42,206 bases of DNA from a virus, in the IMG/VR virus record IMGVR_UViG_3300036790_000830, positions 1 to 42,206 of that record; one strand, 5' to 3'. Position numbers and translations under genes: made by a program. The notes beneath the pieces are model-generated. The model worked only from the letters and a program-made list of their open reading frames with translations, was not told the origin of the DNA and did no database searches. Shown piece by piece: positions 1 through 16,489 of this stretch (position 1 is its first letter; each line of letters opens with the position of its first letter).

Positions 1-1260
1 ATGGTTCCGTCACGACAACAAAGAAAGTCCAAGCCGCTTCCAGATGGATTCACTCTGGATTTTGATTCGCTGATCGATGCTCCTCAGGTTGCCACGGAAA
101 ATAAATTGGGCCAGCTCGCACTCGTACAGGTTTCCGGCAGCACGACAGCCTTCGACCCCAACAATTCGCTCGATCACACTCCAGACCATGCCGATTGTCC
201 CGCCTGCCAGGCGGCCAACCGCGCCCTGGTCGCCGACAATCTTGACCTGGCATCCATGCCGTTCAATGATGCCGGCCGGTCCTGGATGCTGCTGCGCCGG
301 CAAGATTCAGACTTGCGCGACCGCACTCACGAGACCACCCAGGATTACATCGATGCGCTGGGAAGATTTTTCGGCGCCCTCCGCCTGCGAGACATTACGC
401 CGGGCCATATTCGCGGCTATCAGATCGCGCGGCAAAATAACCGGTTGCGCTCCGCCGGCCGCGAACTGAAGCCATGGAAGCGTGCAGCCGGGCACTCCAT
501 GATCAACCATGAGCTCTCCGTGGTTGGCCAGATGCTTACTCACTGCCGGCTCTGGCATCGCATCAAGCCCTACTACTTCCCGCTCTCCATTCCCAGTTGG
601 AGCCCCCGCGAGATCCTCACCGAAGAACAGGAAGAACGCTTATGGGAGATCGCCAGCCGGCATCCTGAGGCCGCGCTGGCCTACTGGGTGGCCACCATCA
701 CCAACAACACCACGGCCGCCGGCATGGAGCTCCGCGGATTACGGCTGAAGAATCTGTTTCTGAACGGCGATGATGAGATCTCCGAAATCTATATCCCCGA
801 CGATTCGGTGAAAAACACATCGCGGCCGCGAAAGATCGCGTTGAACCACACCGCCAAATGGGCCGTGGCGCAGTGCTATAAACGCGCGTTGAAGCTGGGC
901 TCCTGCGAGCCGGAGCATTACCTTTTTCCATTCAGGATGAAGCGCAATGCCTACGATCCCACGCGGCCCGCGTCGCGCTGGTTTCTGCGCAAGAGCTGGG
1001 AGAAGCTGCGCACGGCAACGGGTTTCGCGGAACTAAACCCCTACGATCTACGTCACCACTGCATCACGCGGCTGCTCGAGAACGACGTCAATGAAAACAC
1101 CGTAATCTCCATCGCCGGCCACGTCGGCAAGAAAATGATGGAATACTATGCGCACCATCGGCGCCGCGTGAAATATGCGGCCGTGCTGGCCATCGAGCCA
1201 AAAAAGAAACCGGTCAAGAGCGAGACCGCCGCGATCGCCATGGAACATAAAACCGGCTAG
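1..1260 (+). CDS. int: Tyrosine recombinase / phage integrase
   Basis: This 419-residue protein would integrate or excise the phage. Residues about 95-190 look like the SAM-like core-binding domain, and about 205-405 like the catalytic domain. Visible catalytic-domain landmarks are LRGLRLKNL, a lysine in SVKNTSRPRKI, YDLRHH (box II), IAGHVGKK and the nucleophile region MEYYAHHRR. By hand alignment the usual first arginine (T-G-x-R) falls on an alanine, and box II starts with Tyr instead of His, so the active site is atypical. The C-terminal pattern GH-x5-M-x2-Y-x-H-x-R recalls integrases I associate with Acidobacteriota. The ATG is the first base of the window, so an upstream extension cannot be excluded. 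The gene converges on the tail operon: its TAG shares the CTAG at 1257-1260 with the stop of the opposing gene. No att site was identified. Confidence 0.92.
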   Translation: MVPSRQQRKSKPLPDGFTLDFDSLIDAPQVATENKLGQLALVQVSGSTTAFDPNNSLDHTPDHADCPACQAANRALVADNLDLASMPFNDAGRSWMLLRRQDSDLRDRTHETTQDYIDALGRFFGALRLRDITPGHIRGYQIARQNNRLRSAGRELKPWKRAAGHSMINHELSVVGQMLTHCRLWHRIKPYYFPLSIPSWSPREILTEEQEERLWEIASRHPEAALAYWVATITNNTTAAGMELRGLRLKNLFLNGDDEISEIYIPDDSVKNTSRPRKIALNHTAKWAVAQCYKRALKLGSCEPEHYLFPFRMKRNAYDPTRPASRWFLRKSWEKLRTATGFAELNPYDLRHHCITRLLENDVNENTVISIAGHVGKKMMEYYAHHRRRVKYAAVLAIEPKKKPVKSETAAIAMEHKTG

Positions 1261-1535
1261 AACAGCCTCCCCATCGCCGAAGCATTCAAGCTGCTCAGCC
1301 TGGTCAGCTTCCCCCAGCCCGGGCCGGTGCCTTCCGTCAGAATGTATTTGTGACGGCCGCTCGGCGCCCATACCATCCGCCCCGGGCCATCCGGCCTGAA
1401 CGCGCCGCCCTCCGGATCCTCGTCGATCAGGTCGCGCAAGTACCGCTGCTGCTCCGGAGAAACGCGCCGTTCATTCCCCGGCACACCCGCCTGCACGCGC
1501 GAGAAGATCGATTCGATCAAATCAAAAGCTGTCAT
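1257..1535 (-). CDS. Hypothetical protein ending the tail operon
   Basis: I do not recognise this 92-residue protein (MTAFDLIESIFSRVQAGVPG...). It is soluble, with no signal peptide or membrane segment and no cysteine motif. The chosen ATG at 1535 overlaps the stop of the upstream exported lectin-like gene as ATGA (1532-1535). No good Shine-Dalgarno precedes it, so translational coupling is likely. An upstream in-frame start would lie wholly inside the previous gene and gives implausible protein. As the last gene of the spike operon it could be a small chaperone or assembly factor for the spike, but that is inference from position only. Its stop overlaps the convergent integrase stop. Confidence 0.6.
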   Translation of the reverse strand: MTAFDLIESIFSRVQAGVPGNERRVSPEQQRYLRDLIDEDPEGGAFRPDGPGRMVWAPSGRHKYILTEGTGPGWGKLTRLSSLNASAMGRLF

Positions 1536-2743
1536 GGCAATGTCGCGCCAATCCAGTTGCTTACCGATATGCCGGAGCCTAAAGCCGTGAACCCGGCATA
1601 ATTGCCTGCGATGTGATAAGTGGAATCGGAGAAGGTCTGGAACACCGTGCCATTGATGAGTATGGTCAACGTGACGGTGCTGGTTCCGCTCGCATCTAAC
1701 TCCAACGTCTCGCCTGGCGCTTGTGTATGTGCCCATTGGCCTAACAATGTCCAGCTTCCGGCAACTCTCACATACAGGTCGATGTTGCCGCCATTTTCAA
1801 GCGCGGCGTAGAGGTTGTCCAAACCACCGTTGATAGGTGTATCTCGAACAAGCGGGCCTATCCAGGTGCCACCGCCCACTGTGATCTTGGAGGACTGATT
1901 AGGACCAAAGGGCGTCGTCCAGATTGCGCCCGCCCACGAACCAAGACTGGCTAGAGCTGGCACCGCCTTGTTCCCCGTAAGCACCCATCCTCCGCCTTCG
2001 TCGGACCCCCAGTTGAACCACCAGTTCACGCCCAGCCATCCGGCATCTGCTCTCGTGAAGTTGTCCGCAGGCACAGAACTGAACGAGGGAAGGCTGCCGC
2101 CGGTCCATGTGCCTGTCGTCGCAGTGGGAACTGAATTCTGCTCTACAACTCCAACACCGGGCACCCCCCCGTTGAAGTTATAGGTGCTATCTACTGCCGT
2201 GGCGTTGATCGTAAGTCCGCTCCCGCTATCAAGCATCGACCAGAAGAAGACCGGCCCTGTGCCCGCCACATACAATCCCAGCGTATTGCCCACCACTGGC
2301 GCGGAGTTAGTCGGCGCGACGGCCCCAAAGTCGGTGGGAGTGGGATTCAGCACGCCAAGGGCCCAGGATGTCGAGTAGCCTGTATATCCATCGTTGTAGC
2401 ACCTGCCGCTTCCCGAGCGCACGACAAGCGATTGAAATGAAATAGAACTCTCAGTCCCAACGATAGAAGTCGTGTATTGATTATTGTGAAAGGTGCCCGC
2501 ACTGTAGGCTCCCAAGGAATGCGTGCAGGGAGCTGTCGAAGCCATTACAAAATCCGACACAATCGCAGGATCGCAATCAGATCCTGTTACGGTGGTCCAG
2601 TTAGTACCAAGTCCGCCATTGGCGCGCGCAAAAGTATCTGTGTAGGTTGGCCCCAAACTGTTTGTCACAGCACCAAAAGGCAGCGTTGGCCCCTGCGCGA
2701 AACAACTTGCGGAAGCAAGCAAGAAGGCTAGGAATATTTTCAT
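1532..2743 (-). CDS. Exported protein with two lectin-like domains
   Basis: This 403-residue protein starts with a clear Sec signal peptide (MKIFLAFLLASASCFAQ, AxA-type cut near residue 16). Two similar domains follow. Each opens with a D-x-F-x-R-A-x-G-x-L-G-x-N-W motif, at about residues 36-49 and 228-242, and continues with beta-rich Gly/Ser/Thr sequence ending FTALGSGISVSNW. That pattern is typical of concanavalin/LamG-like carbohydrate-binding domains, often found in duplicate on phage tails and secreted bacterial proteins. The gene overlaps the spike gene upstream by ATGA (2740-2743), so the two are probably co-translated. Likely role: binding host or neighbouring-cell surface glycans. 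A signal peptide on a phage tail gene is unusual. It could instead be a lysogenic-conversion protein. Confidence 0.75.
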   Translation of the reverse strand: MKIFLAFLLASASCFAQGPTLPFGAVTNSLGPTYTDTFARANGGLGTNWTTVTGSDCDPAIVSDFVMASTAPCTHSLGAYSAGTFHNNQYTTSIVGTESSISFQSLVVRSGSGRCYNDGYTGYSTSWALGVLNPTPTDFGAVAPTNSAPVVGNTLGLYVAGTGPVFFWSMLDSGSGLTINATAVDSTYNFNGGVPGVGVVEQNSVPTATTGTWTGGSLPSFSSVPADNFTRADAGWLGVNWWFNWGSDEGGGWVLTGNKAVPALASLGSWAGAIWTTPFGPNQSSKITVGGGTWIGPLVRDTPINGGLDNLYAALENGGNIDLYVRVAGSWTLLGQWAHTQAPGETLELDASGTSTVTLTILINGTVFQTFSDSTYHIAGNYAGFTALGSGISVSNWIGATLP

Positions 2744-5700
2744 CGGTACACCTTAAAATTGAGTGTGAGTGCTCCGGGAGTGATCGAATCCGCAGTCGAA
2801 TTACAAACCTTAAAATTGACGTTACCTGAAGTAGGATACGGGTATATCTGTAGAACTTCGCCCGTCGCCGAAACGCCGTAGCCAGTCACTGCGGTTGGAT
2901 CGCCATTAAACCCCACCTGGATCGTGTCCGTAGTCGCCACACCTGACGTTGCTACCGTCACAACTGTTTCGCACGCTCCCGATCCCACGGCTGCGGTATT
3001 CATCGCGGCAGTGCCTGAGCCGATAAGCACGCCGAATGCGCCGACAGACCCGGTGTTGATCGCAAGCGCAGTTGCTACTCCGGTTCCAACGCCCGAGACG
3101 GTAGAGAGGGGAACAACGCTTCCCGTCGGCAGCGACACGGGAACATTAAAAGTGCAAAGTAAGTTCGTACAAGTCCAGGGAATGACACCATCGGTAATAT
3201 CGTCGATAGCAAAAGTTCCAATTAGCGTAGAACCAATTGACCAATTCTTTGCAGAGTCCATAAAAAGTGTTGCCGATCCGCTGCTAGGAGAAATAGTTTG
3301 ACTTTCGAGGAAAGTATTATTCAAATTTGTCATCGCCACAAACGCAGGTAGATCAGCAGTCACCATAGTGCGGCAAGTCGGATCGGCAGCCGATCCCGAA
3401 GCAGGACCAGCCAAGATGCAATTTGCTGCTTGTGTCAGCAACTGCGAATCTATATTCAAATTGCCGCTGCTCGTTACAGGAGTTCCGGCAGTTGCAGAAA
3501 ACAAGTGTCCGGTCCCGCTACCTACAAGGGCTACACTGCTGACACTTCCTCCACCTCCGCCGCCGCTGTAAATAGGAATGTTCAATACGCTGCCGGCGAG
3601 GGTGGCCGCTCCGCTTGATCCTGTTGTTGTCAGAGTGATTCCGGCGCCGCCGCTCCCGCAATAGATGTTCCCCCATGCTCCTGGCGAGCCTCCTGTGGTA
3701 TTAACCCAACCGCAAACTCCAGTTGCCGATGCGTCTGAGTCTTCAACAATATCTCCTTGCAGCCACGTTCCCGTAGTAGGAGCCGCTGCCGCCTTCGTCA
3801 ACAACTGCATTTCATTCCCAAGCACTGGTGCCGAGTAAGTCAGTGCGCCGGGTGAGCCCGTGACCGTAGTTCCGTTCATAAGTGTGATGATGATGTTTGC
3901 TGGGTTTCCCGCATTGATAGCGCCGATGATACTGTTTGTGACAATCCCCGCTACAGAAACGTGCTGGCCTAGAGACAGGTCTTGCGTCGAGGAAAGAGTC
4001 AAAGTGCCGGTATCGGATGGATTCCCTGTAAATGTCTGGCAGGCATAATTAGTTGAAACGCTGGTGGACGTAGATGAAAGAACGGTATAGGGACCGGAAT
4101 TCAGGTAACTCTCCGCCGTTCCCGCTGTCCAGAATCGATAGCCTGTTGCGAAGGTCGAGCCTCCAGACGCGACCGTGAAGGTAAGAGTAGTCCCAGAGCA
4201 AGAACTAGCCGTAACCGTTGCTTGCGGAGCCGTACAGTTGAGCACGGCGCTAGACGGCGACGTGCAAGTAGTCTGCCCATTGTTTGGCGTCCCGGTTGTT
4301 CCAGCCGTCACGACTACATTCAGGCCGTACCGCTCCGTAGCGCTTGTAGATGCCCAGTAGGAAGGGGGCGCAACGATCTGCCCGGCGAGCAAAGTTGTCC
4401 CGTTCGGCAGCGCGGCAAATGCCGTGTCTGAATACAGAAAATCCGCCGCTTGTGTTTTGTACTGCCATAACTGATTGATATTCACGTCATTGAGAGATTG
4501 CGCGGGCGCTTTCAGTGCGGTCTGTCCAACATTTATAGGCGGTGAGTAGGAGATGAAAGGCGTACTCCCATTCGATCCTGTCATGTTATTTCGCGATATG
4601 CTTGGCAGTCCGACAAACGGAGTAGTATTGTTTGCTCCAGTTCCCGCGGCGAAAATTCCATTGATGGCGGTCAGCTGCAGCGCAGATTCGTTAGGGGGGC
4701 TCATCACGATAGAAGGTGCGTTGAATCCCGCCGTAGTGAGCGATTGGTTGACTTGATAGCTACCTTCCATATCCAGCGTGAATTGCGTACCAGAATTGGA
4801 CGGGCAATCCAGCAATGTGATTCCTCCGTACCCTGGATAAAACGGCTCATCCACTTCCATTCGGATATTGCGGGAAGTCATCTTCACTTGAGAACCTGCA
4901 AAACAAGCCGAATTATCCAGCATGACATAGGCTCCAGAATTTGAGTTGACCTGTTGAGCGCTCAGGGAAGCATTTGAAATGCTGAAAGAATCAACGGCTC
5001 CCACTCTCCAATAAAGCATCGCAACGCTCGCCGCTCCGTCTGAGCGCCACCCCTTGTCCATCTCAAAATCGATTCCGCCATTTGAAAAATAGTAATCAAA
5101 ATACTTTCCGGAATCCACATTGTCATTCAGGATCATGGTTCCGGAATCAACGCGGCTGCCAAAATAAAAGCCTACGCCGAACTGATTCGCGGCGGGAAGC
5201 CCTGGGTATCCGTTGAGGTAGATTCCCTTGATGACTTGTTCGTATCTTGCCGTGGTATCCGTGTAAAAAGCCACGCTGGTTGTGGTCGCCGTTCCTGAAT
5301 CGCTCGTTGCGCTTTCGTTTGTGCAGACATGACCTGTCGGTATCTCAAACTGCGAGGTAGTCAATCCGGTCGCGCTGACCTGCGCTACCAGATTGTTCAG
5401 GCAAAATCCAGCCGTCAACCCCTGGATGATGACCCACTCGCCGGCAGACAATGTGTTTGTGGCTGTAATCGTAGCTACGTTGGACGCAATCGCAGATTGC
5501 GTAATCTGAGAGATAGTTCCGGTCGCCGGACCGTTCCACAGGATAGAAGCGGGAGTTGTCCCACCGGAACTTGCACTCGGTATTCCCTCTACCGAGCAAC
5601 CATGGTACGCATCGATGCCTGCGGAAATCACATACTTCCGCGCTCCGGGGAATTGAACCACGCCCCCATAGAATCCGACGTTGTTGTTGTAGCAGGCAGT

Positions 5701-5880
5701 GAACGCCGCCTGAACCGCGGCCGTGTCATCCGTCGCCCCATCGCCTTTCGCGCCGTACACTGTAACGTCGTACGTCGGATGCGGCAGGCCGACGGTCTTC
5801 GAGCCGTTGGCAGGGAGATATTGCGGCGTCTGCGCTGCGGCAGCGGCCGCCAGCGCGAGAACAAAGATCAGCTTCTTCAT
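2740..5880 (-). CDS. Tailspike-like protein, right-handed beta-helix, with signal peptide
   Basis: This 1046-residue protein opens with a Sec signal peptide (MKKLIFVLALAAAAAAQ). Residues 37-63 carry YDVTVYGAKGDGATDDTAAV, the classic start of a pectate-lyase-like parallel beta-helix used by phage tailspikes and polysaccharide depolymerases. A long Ser/Thr/Gly/Asn-rich beta region follows. From about residue 790 there are glycine-rich collar-like segments (SGGGGGGSVSSV, MVTADLPA) of the kind seen in phage fibres. A strong Shine-Dalgarno (AAGGAG, 6 nt before ATG) supports the start. GC content is visibly lower than in the head genes, as is common for host-range modules. It would recognise or cut host surface polysaccharide. 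No catalytic residues can be assigned by eye. Apparent export before assembly is puzzling. Confidence 0.82.
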   Translation of the reverse strand: MKKLIFVLALAAAAAAQTPQYLPANGSKTVGLPHPTYDVTVYGAKGDGATDDTAAVQAAFTACYNNNVGFYGGVVQFPGARKYVISAGIDAYHGCSVEGIPSASSGGTTPASILWNGPATGTISQITQSAIASNVATITATNTLSAGEWVIIQGLTAGFCLNNLVAQVSATGLTTSQFEIPTGHVCTNESATSDSGTATTTSVAFYTDTTARYEQVIKGIYLNGYPGLPAANQFGVGFYFGSRVDSGTMILNDNVDSGKYFDYYFSNGGIDFEMDKGWRSDGAASVAMLYWRVGAVDSFSISNASLSAQQVNSNSGAYVMLDNSACFAGSQVKMTSRNIRMEVDEPFYPGYGGITLLDCPSNSGTQFTLDMEGSYQVNQSLTTAGFNAPSIVMSPPNESALQLTAINGIFAAGTGANNTTPFVGLPSISRNNMTGSNGSTPFISYSPPINVGQTALKAPAQSLNDVNINQLWQYKTQAADFLYSDTAFAALPNGTTLLAGQIVAPPSYWASTSATERYGLNVVVTAGTTGTPNNGQTTCTSPSSAVLNCTAPQATVTASSCSGTTLTFTVASGGSTFATGYRFWTAGTAESYLNSGPYTVLSSTSTSVSTNYACQTFTGNPSDTGTLTLSSTQDLSLGQHVSVAGIVTNSIIGAINAGNPANIIITLMNGTTVTGSPGALTYSAPVLGNEMQLLTKAAAAPTTGTWLQGDIVEDSDASATGVCGWVNTTGGSPGAWGNIYCGSGGAGITLTTTGSSGAATLAGSVLNIPIYSGGGGGGSVSSVALVGSGTGHLFSATAGTPVTSSGNLNIDSQLLTQAANCILAGPASGSAADPTCRTMVTADLPAFVAMTNLNNTFLESQTISPSSGSATLFMDSAKNWSIGSTLIGTFAIDDITDGVIPWTCTNLLCTFNVPVSLPTGSVVPLSTVSGVGTGVATALAINTGSVGAFGVLIGSGTAAMNTAAVGSGACETVVTVATSGVATTDTIQVGFNGDPTAVTGYGVSATGEVLQIYPYPTSGNVNFKVCNSTADSITPGALTLNFKVYR

Positions 5881-5934
5881 TTACTTCTCCTTAATATCGG
5901 CGCTCCCCGGCGGCGGGTCTTCGTCACCGGGTGA

Positions 5935-6766: not shown

Positions 6767-7210
6767 GTGAACAAGATAGTTGCGCTCGCGATAGTGATCT
6801 GCTGCGCGCTGGGGGCAACGGCGCAGACGCCAGCAGTAAGCGCGCCGTCCATTTACATCGACACCGACCCGAGCTTTCAAACAGCTTTGGCCGCGGCTAT
6901 GGTCAAGAAGCATGACCCTGCGCGCATAGTGATGGACAAGGCGCAGGCTGACTACGTTTTGACAGCAAGCGCGGTCAATGCCCATACAGAGTCCGGTGCC
7001 AGCAAGATCGCCAGGTGTCTGTTTGCCTACTGCGTGGGCATTGAGGGAACATCTTCAGTGAGCGTGCAACTTGTCCAGAAGGGTGTGGTCGTCTGGGCAT
7101 ACCAGGTCCGCAAGAGCAATGGAGGGCCTGTCGGCATCCAATCGCTATCCGAGGCCATAGCAAAACATCTGCGAAACGATTACCTTAATAAGCATGAAGG
7201 GGGCCAGTGA
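6767..7210 (+). CDS. Small exported protein, moron-like
   Basis: The 147-residue product starts at GTG 6767 with AGAGGA a few nt upstream; a longer ATG start at 6731 lacks such a site. It has a Sec signal peptide (VNKIVALAIVICCALGATAQ, AxA-type cut). The mature part has SIYIDTDPSFQTALAAAM, then ADYVLTASAV and VVVWAYQVRK. This resembles a family of small exported acidobacterial proteins that I know only as hypothetical. It lies on the opposite strand to all neighbouring tail genes and overlaps the membrane-protein gene downstream. That is the usual arrangement of a lysogenic-conversion (moron) cassette. A role at the envelope, such as surface change or superinfection exclusion, is inference. 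Confidence 0.72.
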   Translation: MNKIVALAIVICCALGATAQTPAVSAPSIYIDTDPSFQTALAAAMVKKHDPARIVMDKAQADYVLTASAVNAHTESGASKIARCLFAYCVGIEGTSSVSVQLVQKGVVVWAYQVRKSNGGPVGIQSLSEAIAKHLRNDYLNKHEGGQ

Positions 7211-7503
7211 TGCTCGCGAAACTCGGAAAATTCATCGATCTGCGGCTCGCATGTACCATCAGCGTCGGCATTCTCGGCGCACTGACAACTTATGAACTGC
7301 TCGCCGCAGTGCTCCATTGGTGGGCATCAGGATGGACCGACCTTACCTACCAGCAACAGGCTGGGCTCGACATCGCGTTCACTGCGACAATGCTCGGAGC
7401 GAGTTTCTATATCCTCTTCCGACTCGTACGTCGGATCCGCAACGTGCGCCGGCTGCGCGCCGCAGGGCTGCGCGTACCCGTTTGGCCCGCGCCACGGCCT
7501 TAG
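7210..7503 (+). CDS. Two-helix membrane protein, partner of the moron gene
   Basis: This 97-residue protein begins at ATG 7210 in a TGATG overlap with the upstream stop; GAAGGGGG sits at correct spacing. GTG 7207 is an alternative start. It has two hydrophobic segments, about residues 14-38 (CTISVGILGALTTYELLAAVL) and 52-70 (IAFTATMLGASFYILFRLV). A basic tail follows (RRIRNVRRLRAAG). Topology would be two transmembrane helices with a positively charged C-terminus inside. The coupled upstream gene makes an exported protein, so the two probably work together at the inner membrane. Holin-like size and topology are noted, but the lysis genes lie elsewhere. Its TAG overlaps the TAA of the convergent giant virion gene. 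Confidence 0.68.
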   Translation: MLAKLGKFIDLRLACTISVGILGALTTYELLAAVLHWWASGWTDLTYQQQAGLDIAFTATMLGASFYILFRLVRRIRNVRRLRAAGLRVPVWPAPRP

Positions 7504-10500
7504 CCGCCGCCCGCTAGTGCGCCCCACCAGTTCGGATTCTCAACTTTCCCTTCATTCGTGCGCTTCATATATCGCAGCGTCTTCACCGCCTGACCCGATC
7601 CCGGCACGCCCAGCATCTCCCCGCCCGACTCAGCCGCATCCAGACCAATCCCCAGCCAGTCCTTCTCATCCTTCGGGGTAGCCGCGTGCAGCATCGCTTT
7701 GCCGCCCTTGTCGAACATGTTCTCCAGCGGCGTGAACTTCATGTCGCGGCCTTCCACGATGACATTAGCCAGGCTGCCCAGCAACGGTATCGTATCCGCC
7801 GAAAACAGCAGCGCCCGCTTCGCCGCCCACAGCGCCGGATTCTCCCCGTCCTTCGGCCCGTCTCCGGTCACCAGCGCGCCCAGCAGCGCCGGCACAATCG
7901 CTGTGAGCGCGGTGGCATAGGTCAGCTTCCCCACGCGGCCGCCCAGGCTTCCGCCGCCAAACCGAGCCTGATGCGCGTTATCGCGGAGCTGGTTATAAAC
8001 GCCGTTGTGAAAGCCGTACAGAATCGTGATCATCTTATTGAAGTCGTTGTTGCGCATGATCGCCGGCAGATCCTTCGGCGCCGATGTTCCCAACCCCAGC
8101 CGCACCGCGCTGTCCGCTTCGTGTGCGGCGTTGCTCTGAGCCTCGCCCTCCGGCAGGTCCGCATATTTCTGCAGCCCATCCCGATACGCAGCGCGCCACA
8201 GTGTGTGGCTGAAGAGGTGATCGACCGTCGCCAGCGTGAATCGCGCAGCCATTGCGGCCTTCTTCGTGAATCCTTCCTTGTAGCTGGGCTCCCGCAACAC
8301 TGCCCGCACATCGCGGTCCAGGTTGTCGCCGCGGAAGCGCATCTCGTTCGGCGAGAGTTCTCGATTCTCCCGCGTCATCTCCAGCGGCCGCGCCAGAAAG
8401 TCCACCAGCGATTGAGCGATCGATCCCGGCCGCGCGTATAGCAGCATTCGAGGCGCATGGGTGATCTGCAGCAGTGACGTGGACACCTTGAAACCGATTG
8501 AGGCCGCCACCATGTTTCCGCGCAGCGTCTGCATCATGTTGCTCAGGTCGCCAAGCCCCTGCTGCACGCTTCCGTTGCGGTCGTTGATGATCGTCCGCAG
8601 CCACGGCATGAACTGCGCCTCGTAGGCTGGCCCCAGAGTCTCCCGCAGCGTCTTGCGCACTTCTGTGTCCAGCAGCAGCCGCTGGGTGCTCAGCATAAAC
8701 TCACGGTGCGAGAGATCCTTCGCCACCTTCGCAACGTGATCCGTCAGCACGCGCTCATAGTCGAGATCCAGCGGGCCGCCGAACCCGGTGCGCTCCTTCG
8801 TGTACCCCTTCGACGTCGCGGCGCGCACATAGCCGGATTGCATCGCATTCTGGGCGGTTTCCTTCGCCTCCTGCTGCATCCCTTTGTCCGAAAAGCGCGG
8901 GTCCATCTTGATCGGGTAGTAGCCGCCGGCCAGGTCCATCTCCGTGCCATCGTCCAGCGCAACCTTGAACGGAGTCACCTTCACCATCGATGGAGGCAGC
9001 CCCGTCAGCCGCGTCTCCATCTCCCGCATGCGCTCGCCCAGCGGCTTCAGGCTGTCCCACGCCTTTTGCACGAAGCCCCATTCCTCGCGCGTCAACATCC
9101 CACCGATGCGCTGGACCGCGTCTGGATCCCATCCGAACGAAGCGAAGGTCTTTTTCAGGCGATCGAGATTCCCCTCATTGCCCATATTGAACGCGATCGC
9201 GAGCATACGGCGCCGCGAAAGCGGCTCGCCAACCCCATCCACGGTCACCTTGTCCATCCATAGGCGTTTGCGCATCTCCGCCGGCATGTCGGCCAGGGCG
9301 TCGGTCACCGTCCGGGTTACATCATGCTGCATCGTGTACTCATCGCCCTGCGCGTCCGATGCAAGGTTCCATACGTTGTCGTGCCACGGGCCGGACTTGC
9401 CGCCGTCCAGCCATTCCACCATGCGTTCCATGCGCACCAGCAGCGCATCCCCGCGTTGCGCCACGCTGCCAATGCGGTCCGCGCCCGAGCGATTCTCGTC
9501 GAAGATCTTCTCCGGCTTAACGCGCAGGTTCTCCCGCGCAGACTCGATCATGGCGCTCTTCGCCTCGGCGAAGTCTACCTGCTTACCCTGCACGTACATC
9601 TTGAATTCCTGCATGGCCAGGTGCCGTACATTCACCAGCGCGTCATGCAGATCGCGCACTTCGCTCAGCGGCACATTGCGGTAGTCGCCAAAGCGGCCCT
9701 CGTTCAGGATGCCGGGCGCAATCGCCGGCTCGTTCCCCTGTCCGTACACATCCTCCGCCCATGCGCGCAAGCTGCGCTCCGGAGCTTGCACGGCCGGTCC
9801 CAGCTTGTAGCGCGCCAGCAGCCAGTTGAACTGGTCACGGTAGTCCATCCCGCTCTGCACGTCCGCCAGCCCCAGCCGCTGCTGAATCCCGCGGCTCTGC
9901 ATCCGCTTCGCGTAGCTCGCGAACTTGTCCGCATAGTCCCGCGCTGCCGATGCTTCGCGGAATAGAAAGTGATTCAGCAGTTCCTTGTTCTTCGCCTCGG
10001 CCGCGCGCTGCGCGTCGCCCCGCCGCACCGCATCAAACGCCTCGCGAGAGAACATGCGGCTCGCGTTCAAATACCGGTTCGGCTGCAGGTCCGCAATCGC
10101 TTTCCCCTCGATCATCTGCCGCGCGGCTTCCTGGTAGTGTTCCAGCGGCTCAATCGCAATCGAGCGCATCGCCGTCTTTGCCTCGGCAGAACGCTGCTGC
10201 AGAGCCGCAACCCGCTCCCGCAATGCCCGCAGCTCGCGGTACAGGTTCCCGGCGTGTTCCTTGTTCTCCAGCGCAAAGCGCGCCCGGTCATTCAGCGTCC
10301 CGTCGTACCGCACATCGCCGTATTTGTTGACCAGGTAATCCCGCGTAGCCGCCTCGATCGCCGGCGTCCGCCGCATCGTAGCCTGCAGCGACCGCATCAT
10401 CTCCTCGCCCGATCCGTAGCCGAACAACTCTGCCGCCGTCTCCGCGTCCGTTCCGCCCTCCTGGCGGTAGAGTCCCGGATGCAGCTTTTGCAGGGCCTTC

Positions 10501-13500
10501 ACGCGGTCTTCGCCAAACTGGCTCACCAGCGCGTCACGATTCAACGTCAGATCGGTCCCGTCATCCAGCTTGCCGCGCCGCAAGCTGCGGATCGCCGTGT
10601 ACTCCGGCCGCGCATCGATCTCCTGCGTCACCGCGTCGCGCACGTTGCCCTTCTCTTCGCGCCAGGCCTGCGTCTTCTCCCGCAGCGCCGCATCTTTCAT
10701 CTCGCGCCACAACTGCGCCTTGGCCTCGTTCACCTCCAGGCCTTTCGATTCGGCGTATTTCTTGTACTCGTCCTCGGTCCAGCCAGCCTCTTCGGGATTG
10801 TCGAACAGCCGCTGTCCAGCTTCCTGCCCCCTTTCCTGTTCAATCCGGTTCACCGCATCGTCGCCGGCATAGAGCCTGTCCATCACGCCGCGGATGTCGC
10901 TCGACAGCTCCACGCCCAGCGCGCCAGCGCGCCGGTAGATCGACCCCAGCCACACCGCAAAATTATGGAATGCGCGCGTGAGGCCCGACGTGGGCGCATT
11001 GCCCTCACGTGCATACTGCTCATTAGCCCGTGCCCACTGCTCATGCTGCTCCGTCGTGAAGCCGTTTTTATAGGCTTCTTCCGGCGTAGTGCCCAGCCAG
11101 TCGCAGATTTTCTTGAAGTCGTCTTTCAGCGCGTCGCTGGCGCCCTCGCGCTGCGTCAGCTCGCGAAACATCTCTAAATATGCGTGCGCAGGCTCATGGA
11201 TAAAGGTCGAGAAGTCGCCGATCTTCGTCTTGCCGATCTCGTAGCGGCCACCCGGCAGCATCCGGAACCAGCCTCGCTTGGCATTTACTCCATCATCGGC
11301 AGGGCGTTCATCGGCAGTTGCTGGTTCGCCAGTTCCGGATCGGCTCCCAGCTCCGGATTCGTCCCCGGCGCCAATCCCTGCTGCGCCATTCCGGCCATCA
11401 GGTTCTTCACCGCCCGCTCCCTCGTCCCCGGCGGCAACCCGAGATAGGTCTGCATCACTTGCTGTGTTCTGGCGCTGAGCTGCTTCTTCGACGGCATTGT
11501 GAAACTCCTCCGGAGTGAGTTTGCTCCCGAACGCGCGGTTAAAGGCGTCGTAAGCATCGTTCGTCGTGTTCGCCCGTTCCGACACGTTCAGATCGGCATC
11601 GTGCGCATAGCTCTTGAATGCTGTTTGCGCGGCCTTCGGATCGCCGTCGAGAGTTCGCGCCAGCGCATCCACAACCGGGTTATCCGCGTCGCCCTCGCGC
11701 TCCACCGATCCCAGCCTCGCCACGGCCGCGCGGATGCCGGGAAGAAGGTTCCATTCGTCAGGCCGCGAAGCAAATGATGCGATTGCCGGCGCCAATTTCT
11801 TAAGCTTTTCAACAACCGACCTCGGAACCGCGTCCATCAGCCGAGGGTCATCGATCACTGACTCCAGCGGATCGGGCTTGCCTTCCTGGTAGAGCACGTT
11901 CCCACTTGGCGAAGCCGCATGGAAAGCGTTCACGCCCTTTTCGGAGAGAAGGCTGCGTACCTTCTCGACCGCATCGTCACCAGGGTGAAGTGACACATCC
12001 GCCGCGTCGTAATAGTCGGCTCCGCCTTCCTTCATACCCCCCCGCCCAGCCGGCGGCTGATGGTCACTCACTCTGATTTCAGCTGATCCATCGTTCGGAA
12101 GGTCCACACTTATATAGCGCGAGTAGTTGAGCCGTCCTTTAACGGTATAATCCAACCGAGCCTTACGCAGCAGATCCTCAACCTGATGCTGCTTGCCGTC
12201 CATATATGCAACTCGGCTGTCTAAATCTTCGTCATGCTCATGATCCCTCTGCTGACGTTCCCGTTCTACCGTTTCCTCTTCTTCGGCCTCATTGTAATCT
12301 TGCTCAATTGCTTCACGGCGGTCGTCCTCCGACATTTCCTGCCAATCTTCGGAGCCGTATATACTTTCGAAGCTCTGTCCATAGGAATTAATGGCCTCAA
12401 AACTATTGCCGAGGGCTGCGCGTCGCTTGACATCCAAGTTCTCTGCGTTACTCTGGTACAGAGGGTTCGTATTGCCTTCGACAGGCTGACTCCGATTCCC
12501 CGCTTCCCGCTCAAGTACACTGCTAGGCGATTCTGAAGCGGACATCGATTGCGGACCCTCACTTCCACTCACGATATCCGGGTTATGCAGCGCCAGGAGC
12601 TCATCGGGCTTCAGCCCGGCGCGCGTAGCCAGGTTCGCAATCGCGTTCGCGTGCAGCGTCGCGTAGCTGTCGGCCGCGGGCTCCGTCTCGCCGGCGTCGA
12701 CGTACCGCTGCTTCAGATCGCTGTAAACCTGCTTCCACTCCGGCGTCGCCTGCGTCTCCGCATCTGCCTGCGCGTATTCGGCCTGCAGCTTCTCCACGCC
12801 GCCCTTGGCCATCCAGTCCTGCAGCTCCGCCTTTCCTGCTTCAGCCTGCCGCGCCGAGAGATCGGTAGACGGGTCAATCAAATCCGGCAGCAATCCTTTT
12901 TGGTGCTCCGGATCGAGCCGCCCGAAGAAGTTCGCCTTCGGAATCTCCAAGTCGGATCCTGCAGTTGCTGCTTCCGCCAGGTTCGTCGCGCCAACCTGGT
13001 TCGCCATCAGCGCCGGGTCGAGCTTCTTCTCCTGGAAATAGTTCACGAAATCCTGCGCCGGAATCCGAAGGCTGTCATCGCCCTCAAACTGCGCATTCGC
13101 AAAAGACTGAAACGCCTCAGGCGAACGCGCCCGCAGCTTTGACGATTTCGCCGCGTCCACCAGGTCGGCCATCGTCTGCTGGAACGATGTCCCTGTATTC
13201 TCTTCCGGGGTCTGCCCGGAAGCGTCGGCCTCGCCACCCAGGCCCGCGAAGCCAATATGCATGCCTCCCATGGCCGCCGCGCCTTGCAGCGCGCCGCTGC
13301 CGAGGCGCGTGCTCCACGGCTGCCCCATTACCAGGTTCTGCGATAGTTGGCCTGTCGCTCCCGTTGCCGCGCCCATCCCCACCGAAGAAAGCAGCGGGCT
13401 CCGCTTGAGAAAGGGAAGAAAATCCGTCAGGCCCATCGCCACATTTGGGGCCAAGTTCATGCCGGCCACGACGTCCGCAGCGTGCCGCGCCTCGGCATCG

Positions 13501-14324
13501 GACTTGCCGGTGCCGGTCATCTGCGTAAGGGTTGCCCCGCCCTGCTCAGCGCTGAACGCGGATCCCACGCCCGCAGCCGCCAGCACCTTGGCGGCATTCT
13601 CGCTCAGCCCCAGCGTCCGCGCAATGAACGAGGCGCCAGCGCCAATTCCCATCGTTGGCAGAATCGGCCCCAGCATCTGCGCGCCCTTGTCGAGGCCCGT
13701 CTCCTGCTCCCCAACCGCAGCGGGATCGAGAGTGCGCGCGGCTATTTGGAGTGAGTTCAGGCCTCCGGGATTGTTCCCGTGCCAGCCGGCAAACGAACCA
13801 ACATTGCCGGCAAAGCTTTCCGTGCCCTCCAGCGCATCGATCGCCACGCGAGACAGCGGATAGTCAAACACGCGCTGCTTCAGGCTTCCCGAGCCGCCTA
13901 TCGCCTCAAAGGCGCTCTGCGCGGCGTCGCTGACCTTCTCGCGCCATGTGGGATCATACGCGCGCAGCTGCGCCGCGCCCTCGTCAATGCGTGAAAGGCT
14001 ATCCAGGTCGTCATGCGCAACGCCGGCAAAGTTCGGGTCCTGCAGTTGCCGCGCAAGGATCGGGTTCCTGATCTCCATATCCCGGCGATCCAGGTCCGCC
14101 GCCGTCGCCCGCTGCTGCGCGGCCTGGGGATTGTTGCGCACCAGGTCAACGCCCATTCCCGTTTGCTGCGAGAGCTGCTGCGCCTGCGCTTCCTTATCGG
14201 GATTCATCGTAGACGCAGCCGCAACCACCGCCCGCATCGGGACGCCGGTCGACGGCATATCCGGCAGCGAGCCGTCCGCCGCCATCTGTTGAGCGATACT
14301 CAACCCTGAGTTAGGTGTGCTCAC
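7500..14324 (-). CDS. Giant polyvalent ejected virion protein with zincin motif
   Basis: This is a 2274-residue protein in the position of T7 gp16, which is 1318 residues. The chosen start is GTG 14324, in a GTGA overlap with the upstream gene; an earlier ATG would lie wholly within that gene. The N-terminal region has Gly/Ala-rich hydrophobic stretches at about residues 170-310. Residues about 580-810 form an acidic, AT-richer segment with a domain pattern (RYISVDL...IRVSDHQPP) seen in large polyvalent phage proteins. An HExxH zincin motif, HEPAH, lies at 1043-1047 in FSTFIHEPAHAYLEMF, matching the metallopeptidase domain of polyvalent proteins. GGYYPIKMDPRF near 1805 begins a C-terminal large-protein-associated region. 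A hydrophobic segment (TALTAIVPALLGALV) lies near 2140. It is probably packed in the head and injected with the DNA. Confidence 0.88.
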   Translation of the reverse strand: MSTPNSGLSIAQQMAADGSLPDMPSTGVPMRAVVAAASTMNPDKEAQAQQLSQQTGMGVDLVRNNPQAAQQRATAADLDRRDMEIRNPILARQLQDPNFAGVAHDDLDSLSRIDEGAAQLRAYDPTWREKVSDAAQSAFEAIGGSGSLKQRVFDYPLSRVAIDALEGTESFAGNVGSFAGWHGNNPGGLNSLQIAARTLDPAAVGEQETGLDKGAQMLGPILPTMGIGAGASFIARTLGLSENAAKVLAAAGVGSAFSAEQGGATLTQMTGTGKSDAEARHAADVVAGMNLAPNVAMGLTDFLPFLKRSPLLSSVGMGAATGATGQLSQNLVMGQPWSTRLGSGALQGAAAMGGMHIGFAGLGGEADASGQTPEENTGTSFQQTMADLVDAAKSSKLRARSPEAFQSFANAQFEGDDSLRIPAQDFVNYFQEKKLDPALMANQVGATNLAEAATAGSDLEIPKANFFGRLDPEHQKGLLPDLIDPSTDLSARQAEAGKAELQDWMAKGGVEKLQAEYAQADAETQATPEWKQVYSDLKQRYVDAGETEPAADSYATLHANAIANLATRAGLKPDELLALHNPDIVSGSEGPQSMSASESPSSVLEREAGNRSQPVEGNTNPLYQSNAENLDVKRRAALGNSFEAINSYGQSFESIYGSEDWQEMSEDDRREAIEQDYNEAEEEETVERERQQRDHEHDEDLDSRVAYMDGKQHQVEDLLRKARLDYTVKGRLNYSRYISVDLPNDGSAEIRVSDHQPPAGRGGMKEGGADYYDAADVSLHPGDDAVEKVRSLLSEKGVNAFHAASPSGNVLYQEGKPDPLESVIDDPRLMDAVPRSVVEKLKKLAPAIASFASRPDEWNLLPGIRAAVARLGSVEREGDADNPVVDALARTLDGDPKAAQTAFKSYAHDADLNVSERANTTNDAYDAFNRAFGSKLTPEEFHNAVEEAAQRQNTASDADLSRVAAGDEGAGGEEPDGRNGAAGIGAGDESGAGSRSGTGEPATADERPADDGVNAKRGWFRMLPGGRYEIGKTKIGDFSTFIHEPAHAYLEMFRELTQREGASDALKDDFKKICDWLGTTPEEAYKNGFTTEQHEQWARANEQYAREGNAPTSGLTRAFHNFAVWLGSIYRRAGALGVELSSDIRGVMDRLYAGDDAVNRIEQERGQEAGQRLFDNPEEAGWTEDEYKKYAESKGLEVNEAKAQLWREMKDAALREKTQAWREEKGNVRDAVTQEIDARPEYTAIRSLRRGKLDDGTDLTLNRDALVSQFGEDRVKALQKLHPGLYRQEGGTDAETAAELFGYGSGEEMMRSLQATMRRTPAIEAATRDYLVNKYGDVRYDGTLNDRARFALENKEHAGNLYRELRALRERVAALQQRSAEAKTAMRSIAIEPLEHYQEAARQMIEGKAIADLQPNRYLNASRMFSREAFDAVRRGDAQRAAEAKNKELLNHFLFREASAARDYADKFASYAKRMQSRGIQQRLGLADVQSGMDYRDQFNWLLARYKLGPAVQAPERSLRAWAEDVYGQGNEPAIAPGILNEGRFGDYRNVPLSEVRDLHDALVNVRHLAMQEFKMYVQGKQVDFAEAKSAMIESARENLRVKPEKIFDENRSGADRIGSVAQRGDALLVRMERMVEWLDGGKSGPWHDNVWNLASDAQGDEYTMQHDVTRTVTDALADMPAEMRKRLWMDKVTVDGVGEPLSRRRMLAIAFNMGNEGNLDRLKKTFASFGWDPDAVQRIGGMLTREEWGFVQKAWDSLKPLGERMREMETRLTGLPPSMVKVTPFKVALDDGTEMDLAGGYYPIKMDPRFSDKGMQQEAKETAQNAMQSGYVRAATSKGYTKERTGFGGPLDLDYERVLTDHVAKVAKDLSHREFMLSTQRLLLDTEVRKTLRETLGPAYEAQFMPWLRTIINDRNGSVQQGLGDLSNMMQTLRGNMVAASIGFKVSTSLLQITHAPRMLLYARPGSIAQSLVDFLARPLEMTRENRELSPNEMRFRGDNLDRDVRAVLREPSYKEGFTKKAAMAARFTLATVDHLFSHTLWRAAYRDGLQKYADLPEGEAQSNAAHEADSAVRLGLGTSAPKDLPAIMRNNDFNKMITILYGFHNGVYNQLRDNAHQARFGGGSLGGRVGKLTYATALTAIVPALLGALVTGDGPKDGENPALWAAKRALLFSADTIPLLGSLANVIVEGRDMKFTPLENMFDKGGKAMLHAATPKDEKDWLGIGLDAAESGGEMLGVPGSGQAVKTLRYMKRTNEGKVENPNWWGALAGGG

Positions 14325-16489
14325 TTCGTCGGCTTCCCTTGTCTGAGCCACCATGCGGCAATATTCGCCTGCGTAGACGGCATCCCGTTCGACTGCAGGT
14401 CCTGCATCGCCTGCACCGTGTAGCGCGGCGGAATGTCCATCATCCTGACGCTCTGGTTGCCAATCCACACAGTGGCTTTGCTCTGCTCGTCTGGAGTGAG
14501 CGTGGCCACCGGCTTGAGGCCGCCGCTGGTACTGAATACCCCCGACGTGTAGACCTTGTCGATTGTCATGTCCCGCGCGATCTTGCCCTTTTCGTCCCAG
14601 CTCAATACGCGGCCATTTTTCTGCTGCTGGTTGTCGATCTCGTTCTTGATCGCAGTTTCCAACTGAACGCGCTGCACTTTATCGGCGGTGGTTTTAGGCT
14701 CGGCCAGGTTTGGCAGCTGGTTCATCGTAAAGATGTCTGTGAGCTGATCGTGGTCAGTGGTAACGGCGCGAATCTTATCCTCATTACCCTGCATAGCCGT
14801 CGCCTGACGCAGCGCCGTCAAGTAACTGGCATTTGAAAGCTGCCCCTGCGCGTAGGCCTGCCTCACGGTATCGACGGTCTGCTGCTTGGGATCCGCGTCC
14901 CAACTCGCCAACAGGTTCACTTCCTTTTCACCTAGCACCGACTGATTAAGCAGGTATTCCTGCTTCGCCTTCTCGTTAAAGCCGTTGAGGTCCTCCGGTG
15001 TGAGCTGCATACTGACGTCATGGGGCAGCCCCGCAAGCGATTGCCCGTTATCGAACCAGTAGTCCGTCGCCTGTTTCAGCACGGCCGCGTGCTCCTGGTT
15101 GTCGATCTGCCGGTTCATGCTCGCCAGGCTCCGCACTTGGCTCTCGGCCTCGCGCTGCTGCACCGGGTCGCTCACGTTCGCGTTCACCCAGCCGACTGCC
15201 TTTTCCTCATCCGCCGGGCTGCTGAAATTCTTCGGATCGAAAGGCGCGCTCACCGCCTGGCGCGGGTCGATGTATTTCCCGTCCGGATCAGTCATCGCAT
15301 AGTGCATCACGCCCTGGCCGGTGTCGTCCTTGCCGGTGAGCCCCAACGTCTGGCCCTGTGTGATCTTCTGGCCTTCGGTGTAGTTAACCGCGCCCAGGCC
15401 GTTGAAAGTTGCCGTATAGCCGTTCGGCAGCGCAATCTGGGCAGAACGGCCCAGCTGCGGATCCATCCACACCTTCGTCACGGTCCCGCTCGCTGGCGCG
15501 TGTACGTTCGTTCCCGGCGCGGTGTGGATGTCGATCCCGTCCACGCCGTCTGTCGTCGAGATCGTCCCCGCGGGAATCGGCTGCGTCAGCGGACCCGCGC
15601 CCGGCGTCTTTTGCAGGCTCTGCACGGCCTGGTTGCGGAACTCCGTCACCTGCTCGGCCTTCGAGGCGGACTTCACTGCATTGCCCATCATCTCGGCCTG
15701 CCGCATATCCATCTCGTCTTTATGCGCGTCGAAGAAGTCTGAGGCTTCGTTGTACGCGTGCTGATCCAGCAGCGACGTCACAACGCTTCTGTACCGGTCT
15801 GTCCGGTTCTGGCGCAGCATCTGATCGGCCTGCGGACTGTCCGGCGCCACGCCGCTCAACCCCGCGTAGTTCAGCACTTCCGCATCCGACTGTGCGCCGA
15901 ACTTCGCAAAGTTTGAGTCGTCACGGTTGCGCCCGGCCACGTCCAGCGTGCTCATCGTGTTCAGGCTTTCCGCGCGCGCCTTGGCCTGATCCTTGCCGTA
16001 CTGCACGCGTTGCACGTTCTCATGGTCGGCCATCTGCTGGCCCAGCGTCAGCAGGTGATTATTCGTCACCTGGTCGAACATGTTCTGCTGAATCGGGTTC
16101 GTCAGCGACGTACGTGCATCCTGCCGCGCTTTTACGATCGCCTGCGCTGTCGGATCGAACTGCTGCGTAGCGTTGATCCCCTCCGTCGACTTGTATTGCC
16201 CCAGCATTGGCAGCGCGGCGCTCAGAAATTGCGTCTCTGCGGCCTTCGTCTGGGCATCGTCCATCGTGTCCTGCACGCGATCGCCGATGGTGTTGCCCAG
16301 CTTGGCTTCCGTGTCGCCGGCCTGCATCAGCGTCGAGCCGGTCTGCGTCAGCAGTCCCGGCGCGGCGTTCCGCATCGGGCTCACCCAGGGCGAGTTCGCC
16401 GGCGAAATCGGCGTCGCGCCCTGGCTCACATCCGGCGCAAACGTGGAGGGAACTTCTCCCGGCGCAAAAGTCCTCGGCACCATTGGCAT
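14321..16489 (-). CDS. Internal virion protein with degenerate M23 peptidase domain
   Basis: This 722-residue protein lies between the gp14-like and giant gp16-like genes, so it corresponds in position to T7 gp15. Residues about 310-405 resemble a LytM/M23 endopeptidase fold: DGIDIHTAPGT, VHAPASGTVTKVW, YTATFNGLGAV, GQTLGLTGKDDTGQGVMHYAM. The family's zinc and catalytic residues are His in H-x(n)-D, and both His of HxH. Here the Asp (D320) and second His (H396) remain, but the first His is absent and the first His of HxH is Val (V394). Enzyme activity is therefore doubtful. The flanking parts are long, Gln/Ala-rich and probably helical. Its stop overlaps the next start (GTGA). It probably forms part of the ejected core that spans the cell wall. 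Confidence 0.85.
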   Translation of the reverse strand: MPMVPRTFAPGEVPSTFAPDVSQGATPISPANSPWVSPMRNAAPGLLTQTGSTLMQAGDTEAKLGNTIGDRVQDTMDDAQTKAAETQFLSAALPMLGQYKSTEGINATQQFDPTAQAIVKARQDARTSLTNPIQQNMFDQVTNNHLLTLGQQMADHENVQRVQYGKDQAKARAESLNTMSTLDVAGRNRDDSNFAKFGAQSDAEVLNYAGLSGVAPDSPQADQMLRQNRTDRYRSVVTSLLDQHAYNEASDFFDAHKDEMDMRQAEMMGNAVKSASKAEQVTEFRNQAVQSLQKTPGAGPLTQPIPAGTISTTDGVDGIDIHTAPGTNVHAPASGTVTKVWMDPQLGRSAQIALPNGYTATFNGLGAVNYTEGQKITQGQTLGLTGKDDTGQGVMHYAMTDPDGKYIDPRQAVSAPFDPKNFSSPADEEKAVGWVNANVSDPVQQREAESQVRSLASMNRQIDNQEHAAVLKQATDYWFDNGQSLAGLPHDVSMQLTPEDLNGFNEKAKQEYLLNQSVLGEKEVNLLASWDADPKQQTVDTVRQAYAQGQLSNASYLTALRQATAMQGNEDKIRAVTTDHDQLTDIFTMNQLPNLAEPKTTADKVQRVQLETAIKNEIDNQQQKNGRVLSWDEKGKIARDMTIDKVYTSGVFSTSGGLKPVATLTPDEQSKATVWIGNQSVRMMDIPPRYTVQAMQDLQSNGMPSTQANIAAWWLRQGKPTK

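Follow-up and report, generated by a model that had tools for sequence, protein, structure and literature searches.

Tailed phage tails are taken to be completed in the cytoplasm. Why, then, do two neighbouring genes in the tail region of a soil-type phage each begin with an apparent Sec signal peptide, and do their products belong to the virion at all? An earlier note on this DNA raised two answers, tail parts that assemble after export and secreted proteins that are never virion parts. We followed up both in the window, by which we mean the whole stretch analysed, 42,206 nucleotides that make up the entire virus record IMGVR_UViG_3300036790_000830. The spike gene and the second gene lie on the minus strand exactly where the earlier note had placed them (Table 1).

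By its genes, the window belongs with the BPP-1-like (Rauchvirus-like) temperate podoviruses. Recognisable products include tail tubular proteins, the major head protein, a head-tail adaptor, terminase and a large virion protein; the head and tail proteins match PHROG families 376, 394, 212 and 332, an integrase gene is present, and Bordetella phage BPP-1 and Limnohabitans phage DC33 are among the nearest isolates. Membership of the BPP-1 group is supported by the tail tubular protein B-like gene, whose 928-residue product is 60% identical to BPP-1 over 69% of the query. The 2322-residue protein is followed by the 248-residue adaptor, the spike and the second signal peptide-bearing protein, and comparison of this order with bbp10-bbp9-bbp8 of BPP-1 places the last two genes in the slot of Mtd, the receptor-binding protein of BPP-1. 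In both phages the large virion protein thus precedes a tail fibre with the same N-terminal domain and then a known or putative receptor-binding protein. Bbp9, however, has 508 residues and is followed by an Mtd (Bbp8) that lacks a signal peptide, whereas the window has the 248-residue adaptor and a spike that carries one. BPP-1 also has an Avd/RT diversity element, for which the window offers no room between the second gene and the integrase (~270 bp); a diversity-generating retroelement beside the receptor-binding gene is absent from the window and is not required for the Rauchvirus-like grouping. That interval holds a 92-residue open reading frame (1257-1535, minus strand), and a similar small gene (91 residues) follows the signal peptide genes of the related contig L087. 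Among PHROG and profile matches across the window, we found no receptor-binding candidate besides the two signal peptide genes.

Table 1. Features of the spike locus and of the virion genes that place it (window coordinates)
Feature	Position	Strand	Details
Second signal peptide gene, 403 aa, two internal repeats	1532..2743	-	Start overlaps spike stop, ATGA at 2740-2743
Predicted Sec signal peptide of second gene, MKIFLAFLLASASCFA^Q	2696..2743	-	Sequence and heuristic
Spike gene, 1046 aa	2740..5880	-	N-terminal pectate-lyase-like beta-helix, C-terminal tail-fibre-like part
Tail-fibre-like segment, spike residues 695-754	3619..3798	-	PHROG 23059 tail fiber protein, E 3.4e-7 (weak)
Pectate-lyase-like beta-helix start, spike residues 39-185	5326..5766	-	PF12708 and PHROG 8280
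Mature N-terminal stretch TPQYLPANG	5803..5829	-	Common to the otherwise different signal peptide protein of L003/L086
Predicted Sec signal peptide of spike, MKKLIFVLALAAAAAA^Q	5833..5880	-	Sequence and heuristic
Spike ribosome binding site AAGGAG; in-frame TAA directly before ATG	5887..5892	-	
Split tail adaptor, 248 aa	5935..6681	-	T7/BPP-1-type tail fibre N-terminal domain (residues 1-136) and short C-terminal domain
2322-aa protein, bbp10 position of BPP-1	7500..14468	-	PHROG 9880, LPD22, synteny with BPP-1
Tail tubular protein B-like gene, 928 aa	17269..20055	-	PHROG 376, E 7e-189

Signal peptides were called with a rule-based heuristic of our own, not with SignalP, that considers n-region charge, the hydrophobic core and the -3/-1 rule. 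Both window proteins are positive, with a positively charged n-region, a hydrophobic core and small residues at -3 and -1; their N-termini read MKKLIFVLALAAAAAA^QTPQYLPANG (spike) and MKIFLAFLLASASCFA^QGP (second protein). The textbook signal peptides of the earlier note are therefore present on both genes, but the AxA-Q ending it gave them does not hold for the second protein, whose motif is CFA-Q and not a strict AxA-Q. The heuristic accepts 1.7% of 7444 internal pseudo-N-termini and one of the 119 upstream genes in related contigs whose products have 150 residues or more. When the first 30 residues are shuffled, 12% and 25% of the sequences still pass, because composition alone is suggestive, and the case for signal peptides consequently rests on the relatives, in which the slot is filled by unrelated proteins, each with a signal peptide of its own. 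The ribosome binding site and the in-frame TAA before the ATG fix the spike start and make an N-terminal extension impossible; that stop codon, together with the variable gaps between adaptor and spike genes, also ruled out an upstream start or an adaptor-spike frameshift fusion. Ahead of the spike, nothing above chance was found for a promoter or terminator of its own, and the hairpin between adaptor and spike is not unusual (z -1.1). The literature searched yielded no report of tailed-phage spikes with Sec signals; signal peptides have been counted in two Bacteroides phages, with the genes unnamed (PMC5723332).

The beta-helix that the earlier note had recognised is borne out for the N-terminal part of the spike, which matches Pfam PF12708 (E 5.4e-5, under the curated cut-off), PHROG 8280 tail spike (E 5e-6, a weak match) and mannuronan epimerases in the PDB. 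Its description of the second protein as two-domain likewise agrees with an internal repeat that scores 81 against 42.7 +/- 7.2 for shuffles, but no family match supports calling that protein lectin-like, the sole match being PHROG 2804 virion structural protein (E 1.2e-5). Lower GC had been taken as a sign of separate acquisition. The GC content is indeed low, at 53.5% for the spike (GC3 0.54 against about 0.74 upstream) and 56% for the second gene against about 62% upstream, but the argument is weak, given that the fused fibres of relatives are also displaced by a mean of -2.6 points. Close homologues of the spike were found on one contig only, from a different type of phage and with the N-terminus cut off, and no viral relatives were found for the second protein; neither the window spike nor the L087 spike gave a match among isolated phages and plasmids. 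AlphaFold modelling of the N-terminal half of the mature spike and the second protein was uninformative (pLDDT 32).

The adaptor that precedes the spike has no receptor-binding part. It matches PHROG 1640 tail protein (E 5e-25) and Bbp9 of BPP-1 (44% over residues 1-118), and its N-terminal domain is that of the adaptors of T7-type tail fibres and podovirus tailspikes (gp17-N family; PHROG 1640 and others). In most relatives, however, the adaptor open reading frame extends to 348-1095 residues, whereas that of the window ends at 248 and the spike is a separate gene with a signal peptide. Once duplicates and cut-off contigs had been set aside, an adaptor and its next gene could be read in 93 contigs. 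The adaptor is short in ten, and in nine of these (adaptors of 204-315 residues) the next gene is spike-sized and headed by a signal peptide. Eight of the nine were called by the heuristic (window, L086, L087, L088, L089/L166, L090, L119 and L133/L164) and one by eye (L101/L165, with a long n-region and LRA^Q). The tenth, L076, has a 184-residue adaptor and, 319 nt away, an open reading frame without a signal peptide, possibly a broken fused fibre. Among the 83 contigs with longer adaptors (348-1095 residues) the heuristic made a single call, L135/L219, which was discarded by eye for the weak hydrophobic stretch in MTKPTSEQVTFIASGA. The comparison with tail genes of related phages that the earlier note proposed thus finds signal peptides in 9/9 contigs that have a split adaptor and a spike-sized next gene and in 0/83 with a longer adaptor.

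The association between split adaptor and signal peptide gives a Fisher p of 4e-9 on raw calls, a value that treats contigs as independent, which they are not. On the adaptor tree the split, signal peptide-bearing state changes three times, with two separate signal peptide clades and a fused relative without a signal peptide, L085, nested in the first; with only three independent pairs on the tree, a phylogenetic test of the co-variation has no power. L085 (CAIWPS010000779.1) is a BPP-1-like prophage with a fused 993-residue fibre, in a MAG named as a beta proteobacterium; either its lineage changed host and lost the signal peptide, or the contig is misbinned.

Altogether the nine contigs hold 17 SPI-type and two lipoprotein-like signal peptide genes, up to four of them consecutive (L088). 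They lie 11-25 nt behind the adaptor (54 nt in the window) or overlap, a spacing like that of late genes and not of an independently expressed cargo gene. The bodies behind the signal peptides differ: a beta-helix in the window, L087 and L089, a body unlike these in L086 and LamG/CBM5-12 in L133, an indication that the signal peptide is kept while the body is exchanged. The start of the mature spike is nonetheless common to an otherwise different protein (Table 1), and the L088 protein has a similar mature stretch, TPTPQYQP; this shared start could serve as a docking tag or mark a site of recombination.

A link between signal peptide-bearing and adaptor-fused spikes comes from L087 and L097 (IMG/VR 3300028573_000058). 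Residues 17-691 of the L087 spike, which has a signal peptide, align with residues 266-923 of the 974-residue L097 protein, in which adaptor and spike are fused and a signal peptide is absent (E 2e-35, 29% identity over 716 columns; best of 200 shuffles 3e-4). One spike type, homologous over about 700 residues, therefore occurs either fused to the adaptor without a signal peptide or separate with one. The fused form has four cysteines, whereas L087 has 12 in the compared region. We found no adaptor-fused homologue of the window's own spike, and the evidence of this kind concerns the L087 spike. Moreover, homologous spikes headed by signal peptides extend to at least three further phage layouts, where they neighbour an 851-residue tape-measure-like gene (L241), a terminase (L244) or a portal gene (L246); others are found in a differently arranged podovirus (L239) and behind a different protein of about 190 residues (L238, L242). 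Signal peptide proteins of the unrelated phages L119 (gene 1, 334 residues), L238 (5710-8229) and L242 (5638-8514) have in common a mature N-terminal module, IxWPxGC...YN...CV, with a weak BLAST match between L119 and L242 (E 0.004), which is possibly a common docking or surface module.

Both window proteins have Gln at +1, as do 16 of the 17 SPI-type signal peptides of the podovirus set, counted by eye. A Q-rule for Sec/SPI substrates has been described for Bacteroidetes (PMC5837995, PMC10653852), and Acidobacteria are not mentioned in the first of these papers (PMC5837995). On the first 200 kb of the Granulicella tundricola plasmid pACIX901 (Acidobacteriota; L251-L254), 14 of 22 signal peptide calls have +1 Gln, compared with 2/16 on proteobacterial plasmids (p = 0.002), and Acidobacteriota may thus follow a Q-rule like that of Bacteroidetes. 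The phages resemble Bacteroidetes in exposing Gln at the mature N-terminus of exported proteins but differ in having Shine-Dalgarno starts and a GC content of 0.57-0.66, and they match the acidobacterial plasmid. The +1 Gln pattern, GC near 0.6 and Shine-Dalgarno starts together point to Acidobacteriota rather than Bacteroidetes, and we infer that this phylum is probably the host of these soil-type phages. The genome scan for a host returned one betaproteobacterial MAG contig, L085 with its fused fibre.

Cysteine makes up 1.93% of the mature signal peptide proteins and 0.29% of 33 upstream structural genes in the same contigs. Fused fibres have 0.61% (0.91% at matched GC), downstream genes without signal peptides are intermediate at 1.02%, and exported proteins of Granulicella show no cysteine excess (0.71% vs 0.88%). 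The 18 cysteines of the window spike form nine sequence-adjacent pairs. In the spike homologue on L002, cysteines 63, 95, 326, 359, 539 and 549 are kept and 160 and 186 are both absent, a joint loss that fits a disulfide, as would be expected if the two residues were paired.

The reading we prefer is that an adaptor-spike fusion was split and that the two genes encode receptor-binding tail proteins, a spike and an accessory binder. The 248-residue adaptor would remain in the cytoplasm and be built into the tail. Spike and partner, made from the same late operon, would each be directed to Sec by a signal peptide, signal peptidase I would cut before the Gln, which would probably be capped as pyroglutamate, and both would fold in the periplasm with disulfide bonds. 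At lysis, virions with bare adaptors would meet the exported spikes, which would dock through their mature N-terminus. Export of both proteins via Sec is very probable, supported as it is by the slot-wide signal peptide convention, the +1 Gln, the cysteine enrichment and the link between split adaptor and signal peptide, so that the export half of the earlier note's proposal of assembly after export is upheld. That the exported proteins are the receptor-binding parts of the virion is rather less secure but still probable. Export and virion membership together imply docking at or after lysis, which is the least certain step and unproven, and with it virion assembly would end outside the cytoplasm. 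Tailspikes join otherwise finished podovirus particles last and can be added in vitro (P22), which makes late docking physically plausible; a direct precedent for docking after export was not found in the literature searched. We regard the complete sequence of events, from Sec export through folding outside the cytoplasm to docking on the adaptor at or after lysis, as evenly balanced between right and wrong.

The main rival develops the second answer of the earlier note: a depolymerase and an accessory binder, produced by the lysogen or late in an infection, would be secreted to remove polysaccharide from surfaces, release progeny or nourish the lysogen, and adsorption would be left to another protein or to the bare adaptor. 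It would suit the Sec signals, which head every gene of the slot and as many as four consecutive genes in L088 and L238, the enzyme-like bodies, some lipoprotein-like genes downstream and a temperate phage with an integrase. It would, however, leave the virion without a recognisable receptor-binding protein, and it does not explain the homologous adaptor-fused spike of L097. The Mtd position, the PHROG tail and virion matches and the tight linkage behind the adaptor with promoter signal no higher than chance also speak against it. These observations, with the late-gene spacing, weaken the secreted reading, which we consider unlikely. The exported spike, virion part or not, might instead be presented by the producing cell, there to block receptors or to clear them enzymatically, for superinfection exclusion or to prevent self-adsorption. 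From such a position an exported copy could readily occupy or digest the host receptor, and this role would account for the convergence on signal peptides of different phage types that share one host type, but the window holds no separate full-length spike copy for the virion, and its spike has neither membrane anchor nor lipobox; we give this explanation little credence.

Less probable again is that the hydrophobic N-terminus is an assembly element, an adaptor plug or membrane tether, and that the spike is built in uncut in the cytoplasm. The pass rates of same-composition shuffles are in keeping with this idea, but the charged n-region, the cleavage motif and a +1 Gln like that of acidobacterial exported proteins argue against it, as do the cysteine enrichment with loss of a pair and signal peptide sequences that are unrelated between phages and hence offer no single conserved plug. 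That host secreted genes were acquired laterally by chance and have no role in the phage life cycle would account for the lower GC and GC3 of the spike but not for signal peptide genes in the same slot in nine contigs and two clades or for homologues in other phages, and no match was found among plasmids; we judge this highly improbable.

Extended beyond the window, receptor-binding proteins exported by Sec would mean that a group of tailed phages that spans morphotypes and probably infects Acidobacteriota has rerouted these proteins to Sec, with the spike exported, oxidised and docked at or after lysis, a generalisation that we put forward tentatively, as somewhat short of an even chance. If it is true, some virion parts acquire disulfides, and possibly pyroglutamate caps, as they mature in the periplasm, which bears on the order of phage assembly and on superinfection. 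Soil viral 'secreted CAZymes' annotated as auxiliary metabolic genes may then be tail parts, and the locus provides a sequence signature for spotting such phages, perhaps acidobacterial phages, in metagenomes.

Other genes near the locus are of separate interest. A 722-residue virion-region protein with a Peptidase_M23 domain (14321-16489, minus strand) sits where an internal virion protein is expected and could be a cell wall hydrolase carried by the virion. A gene on the opposite strand, placed between the adaptor and the large virion gene, encodes a 147-residue signal peptide protein (GATA^QTP; 6767-7210, plus strand) and looks like cargo expressed separately from the late operon; a homologue occupies the same place in L088 (8447-8896, minus strand). 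In L030, a cysteine-rich 149-residue signal peptide protein is encoded on the opposite strand (1361-1810, minus) between a 428-residue gene and the gene for a 2582-residue virion protein.
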